Assembly (NCBI GenBank): GCA_913064725.1
Contig: CAJYAI010000005.1
Span: 1 to 64,000 of the forward strand
Length of the DNA: 64,000 nucleotides
From: an uncultured Alteromonadaceae bacterium
GTDB lineage: Bacteria > Pseudomonadota > Gammaproteobacteria > Pseudomonadales > Halieaceae
Direction: 5' to 3'
Both the position numbers and the translations under genes were made by a program. Below are positions 13,488 through 19,436 of this stretch, one piece after another. A model generated the notes under the pieces. The model saw only the letters and a program-made list of their open reading frames with translations. It was not told where the DNA came from and did not search any database. Each line of letters starts with the position of its first letter. Position 1 is the first letter of the stretch.

Positions 13488-13773
13488 TAGACACGTCTTT
13501 ATCCAAGCGCTGCCGCAGTTTCGAATTCTCCCGCCTGAGCGACATCAACGACGCGCGCTGTGTCATCACAAGCGTCGAACTTATGAGACTGCCGACAACA
13601 ACACCTAGAATTAAAAAGCCAAGTAGCCAAACCGCCACCGACTGCTCGGGCAGGGTCACTGTAAACAGGACAAGTGGGATCAGACCGGTGTTTTGACTTG
13701 CGAAGATTGCGCCCAAAAAGATCGATAGACAAAGCGTCGTCAGGGTCAGCGCGGCACGGAGCCAGCTGAGCAT
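13480..13773 (-). CDS. lapA: Lipopolysaccharide assembly protein LapA-domain protein
   Basis: Two TM segments and position upstream of lapB; FASQNTGLIPLVLFTVTLPEQSVAVWLLGFLILGVVVGSL. Confidence 0.85.
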   Translation of the reverse strand: MLSWLRAALTLTTLCLSIFLGAIFASQNTGLIPLVLFTVTLPEQSVAVWLLGFLILGVVVGSLISSTLVMTQRASLMSLRRENSKLRQRLDKDVSNG

Positions 13774-14069
13774 TAGAATACCGCCTTGATTGAACGATTT
13801 ACGCGTTCCCTCAGCTCTTTTCCTGGCTTAAAATGTGGCACGTGCTTTCCTTCGAGCTCAACAGCATCGCCCGTTTTTGGGTTTCTTCCTCGACGCGGCT
13901 CTCTGTAGTGTAAAGAGAAACTACCAAAGCCCCTGATCTCGATGCGCTCGCCTGAAGCAAGCGACTCGGCCATATGATCAATCATTAGCTTTATCGCCAA
14001 CTCAACATCCTTAGATGTCAGCTGATTTTGCTGTGATGCCATTAATTCAATGAGTTCGCTTCTAGTCAT
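13773..14069 (-). CDS. ihfB: Integration host factor subunit beta
   Basis: [70 protein letters not shown]; start set at MTRSELI rather than the ORF start at 14114. Confidence 0.95.
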
Positions 14070-14169: not shown

Positions 14170-16044
14170 TCAGAGGCGCGCCAAGAATTTTTCGAGCGAC
14201 TGCAGATCGAGCGGCTTGGTCAAAACACCTGCAAACCCCGCCGCTTCGAATTCCTCAATAGCATCGCTACCAGCATTAGCTGTGCATGCGTAAGCGCGCA
14301 GGTCGCTGGACGCAATGGGCGTATTACGTATCCACTGGAGCAAGTCGAGCCCAGAGTACTCGGGCATCTGAATATCTGTGATCAATACATCAAACCGCGT
14401 TGCCTTGAGGATATTTAGACCCTCTTCAGCAGAGGACGCCATAGTGAGATTAACACCCAGGCGCTCCATCATGGCAGACATTACCATCCGGTTCGTGACG
14501 CTGTCCTCGACGTATAAAATATCAAGGGTTTTTTTTCGTTCCAGCATCATCGCATCGTCGTCGACAATAGCGCCGGCAACTAACACGTCATCCTCGGCGG
14601 GTAACTTTGCAAAGTTCAGTGCAAAATCAAGCGTAGTTCCCTTATCTACAACGCTCGAGATATTGAGCTGAGCACCCATAGTCTCCAGCAACCTCTTAAC
14701 AATGCTCAGTCCCAGACCGGTACCAGAGAACTTCCGGTTGAGACCCTCTGCTGCTTGGAAGTATGGTTCACCGACCTTACTTAAATGCTCAGGCGCTATT
14801 CCGATACCGGTGTCGGCCACCACAAATAAAATTTCCACGTTATAAACTGACTGACTGAGCACTGACACTTCCAGACTCACCTCGCCTTGACGAGTGAATT
14901 TGCGCGCATTACCGAGCAGATTTAGGAGGATCTGGCCAACACGTTGACCGTCGATTTGGACACGAAAATCTTTAACTTCATCAATCGCCGAATGGAATTT
15001 GATTGGAGAATCGTCGAACAAAATATCCGTGGTCGTGGCGATATCACTGAGAAATTCAAATAAATCAGTAGGCTCAGTAACCAGCATGATCGGCTCGTGC
15101 TCCCAGCGTTGAAAGTCTAAGAGCTCGTTTATCAGCAGTAATAAGGTCTGTGCGCCGCGCCTAGCGATAGAGAGGTATTTAGGGTCTGACTCGTCGATAT
15201 TTCCTTGCACGGACATCAAATCTAAGGAGGCAATGATGCTATGAAGTGGGGTTCTGAGCTCGTGACTCACGCTGGCGGTAAACGCATCCTTTGCTTTCAG
15301 AGCCTCGCGAAGCTCCAACGTCCGCTCTTCAACAGTTTCTTCGAGTGACAGGAATAATCGTCTGTTCTCCCGCTCCTGTAAGCGCAGTTTCGTTTTTAAA
15401 CGCCGCAAACTGGCAGCAAGCTTTCCGATCTCGTCATCACGCGACCTCTTAAACAATCGATCAGAATAGTTACCCTCTCCAAGTCGATCTGCCAGCCCAG
15501 CCGCCTCAATGATCGGCAGTAGTACGCGAGTCGATAGTTGTCTGGCGAATACCAATTGAAGAAGACAGATCACGCCAAATGCGAAATACAATGGCTGATT
15601 CAAAGACCACAATCGTGCTTTGAGCACACCTCGCTCAAACATGACCACTACCGTACCATCGAAAATATCGCTCGTGAAATTTCGTTCAGCCGATAGAAAG
15701 CGAGGACTATAAATCTCTGCGACAGAAGCAAGTTCCTCGCTCGACGGAAAGGCCGCAAAAATGCGTCGCTGGTCCGCTTCGTCACTTAAAACGGCAATGA
15801 TGGGCGCGCGCGCGTCAGTCTTAATTTGCTCATTAAGGTCAGATAAAGCCGATAAATTTTCCTGTTCTAAAGCCGATCGAACGCTTAAAGAGTAAGCTAC
15901 CGCCAGACTCGACAGCTCATCGCGCATGCTCTTTTCAAGGGCCGCCTCTTGACGATTTGGCAGAACATACAGCATCAATAAGCCCACCAAGCTCGTCACT
16001 AACAACATTAGTGCCGCCACTTGATAGAGTACTGACTTATTCAC
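14170..16044 (-). CDS. Hybrid sensor histidine kinase/response regulator (TM-periplasmic-TM-HAMP-HisKA-HATPase-REC)
   Basis: H-box SVSHELRTPLHSIIASLD; N/G boxes LLNLLGNARKF, VVADTGIGIAPEHL, FSGTGLGLSIVKRLLE; C-terminal receiver LDILYVEDSVTNRM...DVLITDIQMPEYSGLDLL...LTKPLD. Confidence 0.93.
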   Translation of the reverse strand: MNKSVLYQVAALMLLVTSLVGLLMLYVLPNRQEAALEKSMRDELSSLAVAYSLSVRSALEQENLSALSDLNEQIKTDARAPIIAVLSDEADQRRIFAAFPSSEELASVAEIYSPRFLSAERNFTSDIFDGTVVVMFERGVLKARLWSLNQPLYFAFGVICLLQLVFARQLSTRVLLPIIEAAGLADRLGEGNYSDRLFKRSRDDEIGKLAASLRRLKTKLRLQERENRRLFLSLEETVEERTLELREALKAKDAFTASVSHELRTPLHSIIASLDLMSVQGNIDESDPKYLSIARRGAQTLLLLINELLDFQRWEHEPIMLVTEPTDLFEFLSDIATTTDILFDDSPIKFHSAIDEVKDFRVQIDGQRVGQILLNLLGNARKFTRQGEVSLEVSVLSQSVYNVEILFVVADTGIGIAPEHLSKVGEPYFQAAEGLNRKFSGTGLGLSIVKRLLETMGAQLNISSVVDKGTTLDFALNFAKLPAEDDVLVAGAIVDDDAMMLERKKTLDILYVEDSVTNRMVMSAMMERLGVNLTMASSAEEGLNILKATRFDVLITDIQMPEYSGLDLLQWIRNTPIASSDLRAYACTANAGSDAIEEFEAAGFAGVLTKPLDLQSLEKFLARL

Positions 16045-16484
16045 CTGAGGCTAATCACCATCAGTTCCTCGGAGACCTCTGGCGCCGCGCTGGCAACGAC
16101 GACACCTAGGGCACCGAGCTGACTTGCAACACGCTCTATCACAGCCTCGTTATTTTCGGCGTAGTCAGGCGCATTGGCCCGTCCACTGAACACCAAACGA
16201 AACCACGAGCGCTGCATAACCCGACCTGAAGCGCCAAATAGCTGTTGCGCCACGGTATCAAAGTGCGGTGATGTACGAGAGGGGAGGATCACTTTTGCTG
16301 GATCGCCCTTATCCCAGTTCCGACGCTGTCCCGTTAAAAGACTCTCAAGCGCGCCTTGATCTACCGAAGATCCTGAAGGCGCGTTAACAACAATAAACAG
16401 ATCAGCCGCCCAGGTGCTGTTGGCTGCGGGAGGCGTCACGGTGAGCGCGATCGTAGTCAGTAATGTGAGCAGATGTCGGGGCAT
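16041..16484 (-). CDS. Small secreted PBP-like (PstS-type substrate-binding fold) protein
   Basis: Signal peptide MPRHLLTLLTTIALTVTPPAANSTWA then DLFIVVNAPSGSSVDQGALESLLTGQRRNWDKGDPAKVILPSRTSPHFDTVAQQLFG...; ATG at 16484, 4-nt overlap with the kinase start. Confidence 0.65.
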   Translation of the reverse strand: MPRHLLTLLTTIALTVTPPAANSTWAADLFIVVNAPSGSSVDQGALESLLTGQRRNWDKGDPAKVILPSRTSPHFDTVAQQLFGASGRVMQRSWFRLVFSGRANAPDYAENNEAVIERVASQLGALGVVVASAAPEVSEELMVISLR

Positions 16485-16492
16485 ATACGACG

Positions 16493-17575
16493 TTAAAATC
16501 CGAGCGATAGTTGGACTTCCAAGACAGAGCCCTCTGTTTTGACTTGTGTCGACCGATTTTGCTCTTCCCTGAGTTCCACTTTCAGTGCGACACCACGGGT
16601 CACAAACCACTCGGTACCGATACCGTATCGCTGTACAATCCCGGGCGTAAAATGAACTTCATCTCTCGACACGTTGACGTAATCGAATAGCGTGTAAACA
16701 GAAAGAGCATCATTTAGGTGATAACCCAGGTACTGAAACCCGGCCCAGTTCCAATCACCTTGATCTGTCCTATTTGACGACAGCTCGGTGAGAGAACGCC
16801 ACATGTCGCCCTCGTGGTGCAGGGACCACGACAGCAGCTCGTAAGCGATGTCCTCACCTGACTCAGAGCGCACGTCACCTGCGGATGAGGCAGAGTCGTG
16901 GATTACACCTGATTGACCCCCAAGATGATGACCGCCGTGGAAGGGATTTTCCTCGTGATCAAGAATCGTATCCCGATAGTAGCTGAACACGCTTTTGGAC
17001 CCAGTAGTTGGCAACCAACTAAAACTCGCGGTATAGGATTGAATGCCGTCGGCGAAAACGTCGTTTCCTGCAGATTGTCCGCTTCCAACAACCAGGTCAT
17101 ATCCCACGCCGTCAACCATAGGGCTTTGTCCCGACAGCCGAATACCGATTTCGTGAACTGGAATGAAGCGTCCAAACGAGGCTGGCCGGTTAATCGTTGG
17201 AAAAAAATACCGACCATGATGAAAGTTGTCGTTCCAGTAATTTACCGGGGTATGCATTTTTCCAAAACTGATCGCATTGTCTCGATCAAACTCGTACCGG
17301 ACGCGGATGCGCTCCAGGGTAAACTGCTTATCGCGGTATTTCTCAGCCTGAAACGTCGCCTCCGATAAAAAAGACCACCTTCCTATGTTGCCCGTTAGAA
17401 ATAATGCCGACTCACCCCACTCGAATTCTCGATCTGAAGCCTCAGCAGCATCAGAGGTATCGAACTCAAAATGGGTAAACCAATTGGCGTTAATATCCTG
17501 CGCGTGGACTGAGAAGGCAGATACTGTCCCCACACTAAAAATAATTGCCTTAGTAAAACATTTGTATGCTTTCAT
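16493..17575 (-). CDS. Outer-membrane beta-barrel (porin-like) protein
   Basis: Signal peptide (...FSVGTVSAFSVHAQ), alternating amphipathic strands and C-terminal aromatic residue (LEVQLSLGF). Confidence 0.7.
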   Translation of the reverse strand: MKAYKCFTKAIIFSVGTVSAFSVHAQDINANWFTHFEFDTSDAAEASDREFEWGESALFLTGNIGRWSFLSEATFQAEKYRDKQFTLERIRVRYEFDRDNAISFGKMHTPVNYWNDNFHHGRYFFPTINRPASFGRFIPVHEIGIRLSGQSPMVDGVGYDLVVGSGQSAGNDVFADGIQSYTASFSWLPTTGSKSVFSYYRDTILDHEENPFHGGHHLGGQSGVIHDSASSAGDVRSESGEDIAYELLSWSLHHEGDMWRSLTELSSNRTDQGDWNWAGFQYLGYHLNDALSVYTLFDYVNVSRDEVHFTPGIVQRYGIGTEWFVTRGVALKVELREEQNRSTQVKTEGSVLEVQLSLGF

Positions 17576-17613: not shown

Positions 17614-17643
17614 AAAAAAAAAAACCGGCAAAGCCGGTTTTTT
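17614..17643 (-). terminator. Intrinsic terminator downstream of rpsA (bidirectional appearance)
   Basis: aaaaaaaaaACCGGCaaaGCCGGTtttttt: hairpin AACCGGC/GCCGGTT flanked by A-run and T-run, 25 nt after the rpsA stop. Confidence 0.85.
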
Positions 17644-17667: not shown

Positions 17668-19341
17668 TTATTGGTCGCTCATTTGCGCCTTAATCAAATC
17701 ACCAATCGTACCCGGCGATGCTGCGTTATCCTGCTGTTTCAAAGATTGAACTGCTTCTTTCTCGTCGTCCATGTCCTTGGCCTTGATCGACAAACCAATT
17801 GACCGCGTTTTTCGATCGATGGCGACAATCTTAGCTTCAACCTTCTCACCGACACTCAGCACTGAACGCGCATCCTCGACACGCTCGCGGCTGAGATCAG
17901 CGACCTTAAGGTAACCATCGACTTCTTCGTTGAGCTTGACGACAGCGCCTTTCGCATCAACTTCGGTGACTTCGCCAGTGACGATGGTGCCCTTATCAGC
18001 CTCACCAACATAGATCGAGAATGAATCTTCTTCGAGCTGCTTAATACCGAGAGAAATGCGCTCACGGTCAGGGTCGATACTCAGAATGACTGTTTCAATT
18101 TCGTCACCCTTCTTGTAGTTGCGAACCGCTTCTTCGCCCGTCTCGTTCCAGCTGATGTCGCTTAAGTGAACCAGCCCGTCGATATTACCTGCAAGGCCGA
18201 TGAAGATACCGAAGTCCGTGATTGACTTGATGGAACCAGAGATCTTGTCGCCAATGGCATGTTGCGAACCAAAAGCGTCCCAAGGATTCTGTTGGCACTG
18301 TTTAATACCGAGAGAGATACGGCGACGTTCTTGGTCAATATCAAGCACCATCACTTCCAACTCATCGCCCAACTGCACAATCTTCGACGGGTGAACATTC
18401 TTGTTGGTCCAATCCATCTCTGATACGTGAACTAGGCCTTCTACACCCTCTTCAATCTCAGCGAAACAACCATAATCGGTGAGGTTCGTAATGCGCGCAT
18501 TCACGCGGCTACCCTCAGGATAACGATTGGTGATTTCCACCCATGGATCCTCACCCAACTGCTTGAGTCCGAGAGATACACGATTGCGCTCACGGTCAAA
18601 CTTAAGGACTTTAACATCCATCTCTTGACCGACTTCCACGACCTCGCTCGGATGCTTGATTCGCTTCCATGCCATGTCTGTGATGTGCAGCAAGCCATCG
18701 ACTCCACCCAAATCAACAAACGCGCCGTAATCGGTAAGGTTTTTAACCACACCCTTGACGCTCTGGCCTTCTTGCAAGTTCTCGAGCAACTCGTCGCGCT
18801 CGGCACTGTTTGCTGCTTCCATGACCGCACGACGCGAGACAACAACGTTGTTGCGCTTTTGATCGAGCTTGATCACTTTAAATTCTAGTTCTTTGCCTTC
18901 GAGGTGGGCGGTCTCGCGAATCGGACGTACGTCGATCAGTGAACCCGGCAAAAATGCGCGTATGGAATCGACGTCGACGGTAAATCCACCTTTGACCTTA
19001 CCGTTAATGACTCCAATAACCACGTCTTGCGCCACATGTGCGGCCTCAAGTGTTGTCCACGCTTCAGCACGCTTCGCTTTCTCGCGAGATAACTTAGTCT
19101 CGCCAAAACCATCCTCAACCGTTTCAAGCGCTACCTGGACTTCGTCACCCACGTTTAGGGTGCACTCGCCATTGGCGTTCATAAATTGGTCGCGAGGAAT
19201 GACTCCCTCTGACTTTAAACCCGCGTGAACTGTTACCCACTCGTTGTCGATATCAATAACAACGCCGGTCACGATCGAACCGGGCTCCATGTCTACGGTC
19301 TTAAGACTTTCTTCAAATAACTCGGCGAATGATTCGCTCAT
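17668..19341 (-). CDS. rpsA: 30S ribosomal protein S1
   Basis: Repeated S1 domains ([39 protein letters not shown]..., [30 protein letters not shown]...). Start at MSESFAEL. Confidence 0.97.
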
Positions 19342-19436
19342 TGACTGTACCTGCAGTATCGCTGCAAACATCGCAGCACCAGCCTACCTACCAAGCTGGG
19401 TCGGTTAAAAAAACACTGAGTCTAGGGGTAGGACCT

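Follow-up and report, generated by a model that had tools for sequence, protein, structure and literature searches.

A putative outer-membrane porin and a small periplasmic protein, predicted to have the fold of a single PstS lobe and here called the mini-PBP, were found to be encoded side by side at many gammaproteobacterial loci, often next to a signal transducer whose output class varies from locus to locus. In the window (the whole 64,000-nucleotide stretch that was analysed), the third gene encodes a hybrid histidine kinase. Tripartite envelope signalling is a known kind of arrangement; the surprising part is the recurrent pair of porin and single-lobe PstS, which is apparently undescribed. 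No description of this layout was found in the open-access literature searched. Two leads from the literature, VCA1008/VCA1007 and McpT, yielded no connection to the module and were set aside.

The locus between rpsA and ihfB

The sequence-only reading had placed a barrel, a small PBP-like protein and a hybrid kinase between rpsA and ihfB, and three minus-strand ORFs were recovered at 14170–17575. The features of the locus are as follows.

17668..19371, minus strand: rpsA, the upstream flank (relatives have an rpsA of 93–96% identity in the same place)
17619..17643, minus strand: intrinsic terminator of rpsA, the upstream border of the unit
16493..17575, minus strand: outer-membrane barrel, predicted from a 360-aa ORF with signal peptide and C-terminal F
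16041..16484, minus strand: mini-PBP, a 147-aa ORF with signal peptide and one predicted PstS-like lobe
14170..16044, minus strand: hybrid sensor histidine kinase, a 624-aa ORF with GTG start
15595..15957, minus strand: periplasmic domain of the kinase (residues ~30–150), without a Pfam name
15382..15534, minus strand: HAMP domain of the kinase (residues 171–221; PF00672, E = 2.4e-7)
14188..14520, minus strand: terminal receiver of the kinase (residues 509–619; PF00072, E = 1.9e-20)
13773..14069, minus strand: ihfB, the downstream flank (ORF)

The barrel stop codon and the mini-PBP ATG are separated by 8 nt, while the mini-PBP stop and the kinase start share 4 nt, an overlap through which translation of the two genes is likely to be coupled. 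The proposed rpsA terminator was confirmed as an 11-bp stem at 17643–17619 followed by T's. No terminator-like site was detected in the interval between the kinase and ihfB, and ihfB could therefore share a transcript with the three genes.

The proposed kinase architecture held, with HAMP, HisKA, HATPase_c and Response_reg domains all scoring above their Pfam cut-offs in a protein anchored by transmembrane helices, as expected of a hybrid histidine kinase. The protein ends in its receiver and has no output domain, and a Pfam scan of the periplasmic domain returned no named domain. The kinase scored far below the NCBIfam equivalog cut-offs for TorS (261 against 676.5) and LuxQ (219 against 1200), and no characterised phosphate or TMAO system was found to contain parts of the triad. 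Since the source genome has one free Hpt protein (contig C57:2321-2671) and 16 receiver matches, a phosphorelay from the kinase receiver to the free Hpt would be the likeliest output route. Kinases beside the pair at two other loci (L186 and L241) themselves carry a REC-REC-Hpt arrangement.

In most sister species lacking the triad, rpsA and ihfB were adjacent, with 139–358 bp between match ends at the loci inspected. The claim that the triad interrupts this gene order was thus correct, but the interruption is not fresh. In a tree of rpsA and IhfB, all genomes with the triad or traces of it fell into one clade of 16 species (support 100/99). Within this clade, five species had the triad, one (G060) had the kinase only, six had remnants of the kinase and/or barrel, and four had an empty site; each of the other 15 species of the genus that were sampled likewise had an empty site. 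The window triad therefore occupies this site in four further species as well, although in two of the five triad species (G087 and G103) a contig end cuts the kinase short. A recent insertion was ruled out by the remnants in six relatives together with the single supported clade. The triad was probably gained once, before the 16-species clade arose, and then lost repeatedly, such that it is now decaying; tree counts by themselves do not separate gain from loss, and the single-gain reading draws its support from the remnants.

The case of G060 deserves separate mention. Its kinase is intact (L286:4964-6838) and is the only gene of the triad at the rpsA–ihfB site; no barrel adjoins it, and a mini-PBP was not detected in the genome. 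Relaxed evolution of the orphaned periplasmic domain was considered and rejected, as none was visible: identity was 58%, against 43% in the triad-bearing G064.

Identity and pairing of the barrel and the mini-PBP

Although the window barrel had no Pfam match at all, including to porin models, its proposed identity was borne out by a family profile and a structure model. The AlphaFold2 model (pLDDT 84, pTM 0.80) had 16 strands, and the chain ends in an aromatic residue; both are features by which a porin was recognised. Foldseek searches with this model returned the general porins Omp36, OmpF and OmpC as top matches, and OprP was absent from the 50 best. By contrast, the top sequence match of a 58-member profile of the barrel family was OprP (2o4v, E = 8e-12). 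The Porin_O_P model matched eight of the 58 family members and did not match the window barrel. On the strength of a confident model, then, the barrel is predicted to be a member of the porin family that travels with the mini-PBP.

The PBP-like character of the small protein was likewise upheld by family profile and predicted fold, the PBP_like_2 match of the window copy itself being weak (E = 0.007, below the Pfam cut-off). A 16-member profile searched against the PDB retrieved the PstS structures 4q8r, 4gd5, 4exl and 1twy, with E-values down to 2.5e-6. The AlphaFold2 model was again confident (pLDDT 93), with about 120 residues beyond the signal peptide. Its leading Foldseek matches were all PstS, with one lobe covered (best E-value 1.2e-3; TM-score about 0.5 when normalised to the query length). 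The model spans one lobe where PstS has two. The SGT anion loop of PstS was missing in 57 of 61 mini-PBPs and kept in only four; the window copy has TSPHF at the aligned position. Four residues (W94, F99, G101 and P106) were near-invariant among mini-PBPs. Classical presentation of a ligand by the mini-PBP, as the sequence-only reading had envisaged, appears less likely than protein–protein signalling, because the protein is a single lobe and the SGT loop is so generally missing.

These comparisons bear on the possibility that the locus senses phosphate or polyphosphate, with an OprP-like porin admitting phosphate and a PstS-like lobe binding it and signalling. PstS was the sole clear fold match of the mini-PBP, TIGR02136 (the NCBI model for the PstS family) matched 31 of 61 mini-PBPs, and the window barrel shares its 16 strands with OprP/OprO and general porins, OprP leading the sequence matches of the family profile. 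However, the mini-PBP differs from PstS in lacking the other lobe and, with the exceptions given, the anion loop, and no ABC transporter genes were seen in the annotated neighbourhoods inspected. The window barrel also departs from OprP/OprO and general porins in having no porin Pfam match and in belonging to a family that accompanies the mini-PBP, and its model lies nearest to general porins rather than OprP. Phosphate sensing was judged very improbable.

The sequence-only reading had made novelty depend on the genes occurring together elsewhere, and co-occurrence was strong for the barrel and the mini-PBP. In a first set, 100 of 118 mini-PBPs were directly flanked by a protein of 250–520 aa with an aromatic C-terminus (99 F, 1 Y). 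These flanking proteins were picked by size and C-terminal residue, homology being unused, and blastp linked 98 of the 99 distinct sequences into one family. A conserved motif of the mini-PBP led to a second set, of 80 loci, in which a barrel of this family adjoined 86 of 88 mini-PBP copies. Members of the family made up 200 of 274 size-matched ORFs lying no more than 150 bp from a mini-PBP; at distances above 2.5 kb, they made up 1 of 610. Barrel and mini-PBP distances were correlated (r = 0.73; permutation maximum 0.09), shared species ancestry contributing to this value. The mini-PBP was present in 101 of 369 gammaproteobacterial genomes (about a quarter), in up to ten copies per genome.

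Several variants of the arrangement were seen. Tandem mini-PBPs, or tandem barrel/mini-PBP pairs, occurred at L093, L129, L201, L204 and L242. On P. aeruginosa megaplasmids, a run of chemoreceptor, porin and mini-PBP lay next to TetR and RND efflux genes (L296, plasmid pPA272), and on an Alteromonas mediterranea plasmid a mini-PBP and a barrel-sized protein lay beside a type IV CRISPR csf cluster (L298:4396-5973). At four loci (L144:3989-6013, L145:3669-5375, L146:3986-6241 and L147:3977-5668), the mini-PBP domain formed the C-terminus of proteins of 560–750 aa. As read from the sequence, the N-terminal half of these fusions has a region resembling a J-domain type, after which come a transmembrane helix and then a long linker.

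Transducers beside the pair

A transducer gene lay within 400 bp of 103 of 195 pairs: 44 diguanylate cyclases (with or without EAL), 42 chemoreceptors and 17 histidine kinases. The remaining 92 pairs had none within that distance, and the pair may therefore have a function of its own. Transducer genes accounted for 20% of bases within 2.5 kb, compared with 2.7% beyond 4 kb, which is an enrichment of about sevenfold next to pairs across the class. Output class changed at least 14 times on a quick tree of the pairs. The envelope-signalling circuit put forward from the window alone was therefore right in so far as a three-gene unit recurs, but the kinase proved to be just one of several interchangeable transducers.

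The exchange of outputs could be followed most closely in a sister genus, where the closest barrels (38–40% identity) and the closest mini-PBPs occupy another genomic site and are followed by a GGDEF-EAL gene. This GGDEF-EAL protein and the window kinase are homologous over the first 245 residues of the former, a stretch comprising periplasmic domain, TM2 and HAMP; identity was 28% over 123 aa without gaps for the periplasmic domain, and 29% over 217 aa with TM2 and HAMP included. As judged from these alignments, the output half has been exchanged while the sensor half was kept together with the pair. A comparison of kinase and GGDEF sensor profiles gave a weak colinear match (E = 0.0014, probability 17%), which is only a hint. 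Across the adjacent transducers as a whole, sensor domains were diverse (dCache_1, dCache_3, CHASE8-like and unnamed), which argues against a single fixed docking site for the mini-PBP on transducers.

One explanation of these associations is that the operon arose by chance, the barrel and mini-PBP being one unit and the kinase an unrelated neighbour. The survival of the G060 kinase by itself agrees with this. Yet the triad is found in five species spanning the clade, two of its genes overlap by 4 nt, and the enrichment of transducers beside pairs extends across the class. At the distant loci L114, L143, L186, L198, L226, L232 and L241, too, the pair is followed by a hybrid kinase on the same strand. 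A chance association was regarded as very improbable.

Some of the 17 kinases are transcribed divergently from the pair, with an NtrC-type regulator in reach, and these may only regulate expression of the pair. In one branch (loci L152, L154, L155 and L163), a histidine kinase gene points away from those of the barrel and mini-PBP, and a sigma-54 regulator of NtrC type is within reach; the L152 kinase contains dCache.

The main rival to a signalling role for the mini-PBP is that porin and mini-PBP form an uptake or gating pair, while the transducer binds the same solute itself and is never touched by the mini-PBP. The genes would then be grouped through a common ligand, bound by a Cache-like domain of the kinase, cyclase or chemoreceptor. 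Domains of the dCache kind are known for direct binding of small molecules, and their presence in some transducers is as this explanation expects; it would also account for the differing sensor domains, for the half or so of pairs that have no transducer nearby and for the OprP-like profile of the barrel. It fits less well with the unnamed sensor half common to the window kinase and the sister GGDEF-EAL protein, which accompany the same pair, and a single lobe without the SGT loop would be a poor solute binder. This explanation was considered a serious one, though rather doubtful.

Comparison with known systems and a proposed mechanism

TorT-TorS, LuxP-LuxQ and NspS-MbaA resemble the triad in placing a periplasmic protein of PBP fold beside a hybrid kinase or GGDEF-EAL transducer. 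Their periplasmic components, however, are complete PBPs with two lobes and a small-molecule ligand, and none of these systems is known to have a dedicated porin; the window kinase, as stated, scores far short of both the TorS and the LuxQ cut-off. In the Rcs phosphorelay, a porin-associated outer-membrane sensor feeds a hybrid kinase, RcsF being a lipoprotein displayed through other barrels. The triad likewise combines a porin-linked outer-membrane layer with a hybrid kinase, but here the gene of the porin itself lies with that of the periplasmic protein.

The closest parallel was with YfiBNR, HmsCDE and AwsXRO, which like the triad comprise an outer-membrane protein, a single-lobe periplasmic protein and a transducer of TM-periplasmic-TM-HAMP layout. 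YfiR resembles one lobe (the N-terminal lobe, by Dali) of a type I PBP, and it represses YfiN through the YfiN periplasmic domain until an outer-membrane protein draws it off (PMC4655355, PMC3375315). Divergent relatives of YfiBNR have GGDEF, GGDEF-EAL, histidine kinase or MCP outputs (PMC3375315, PMC4655355). The parts themselves differ. YfiR is a DUF4154 protein built on a type I PBP lobe, whereas the mini-PBP is a PstS-like lobe, and homology between the two was tried and rejected: no DUF4154 match was found among 62 mini-PBPs, YfiR was outside the 50 best fold matches, and hhalign of a 61-member mini-PBP profile against E. coli YfiR gave a probability of 0.7%. YfiB is a Pal-like lipoprotein; no Pal/OmpA-like lipoprotein takes its place in the triad, where the partner is a 16-strand porin. 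The window kinase did not match CHASE8 (the L103 transducer had a weak match, E = 0.026, below the cut-off), and hhalign of its sensor domain against YfiN gave no significant match. The triad thus seems to parallel YfiBNR in its working, not in membership, its parts being non-homologous by the tests run.

By analogy with YfiBNR, the barrel, mini-PBP and transducer may constitute a three-layer envelope signalling unit in which the state of the mini-PBP sets the transducer, a proposal for and against which the balance is about even. We infer the physical contacts, the direction of control, the signal and the phosphorelay partner as follows. The barrel would be a dedicated outer-membrane porin, and the mini-PBP, which has no more constant neighbour in genomes than this porin, would dock on its periplasmic side. 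Porin occupancy, or the condition of the outer membrane, would determine whether the mini-PBP is bound or free, and this state would in turn change the inner-membrane transducer at its periplasmic domain. In the source genome, the signal would pass from the receiver of the hybrid kinase to a separate Hpt protein and on to a response regulator; in other bacteria, the porin and mini-PBP would be plugged into a cyclic-di-GMP enzyme or a chemoreceptor. The intact kinase of G060, which has neither partner, counts against such a unit.

Public annotation gives the mini-PBP the name 'phosphate ABC transporter substrate-binding protein' or calls it hypothetical, and these labels hide a unit that recurs through the gammaproteobacterial genomes counted above and on P. 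aeruginosa megaplasmids. It is tentatively suggested, with confidence falling a little short of even, that the pair and its transducers represent a second, independently evolved family of outer-to-inner-membrane signalling, parallel to YfiBNR, in which a PstS lobe would be the messenger between porin and transducer, with interchangeable kinase, cyclic-di-GMP and chemotaxis outputs across Gammaproteobacteria (sensu GTDB, including Burkholderiales). If the mini-PBP reads the state of the porin, traffic across the outer membrane would be sensed and relayed into a phosphorelay, cyclic-di-GMP signalling or chemotaxis, and half-PBP messengers would have evolved at least twice.
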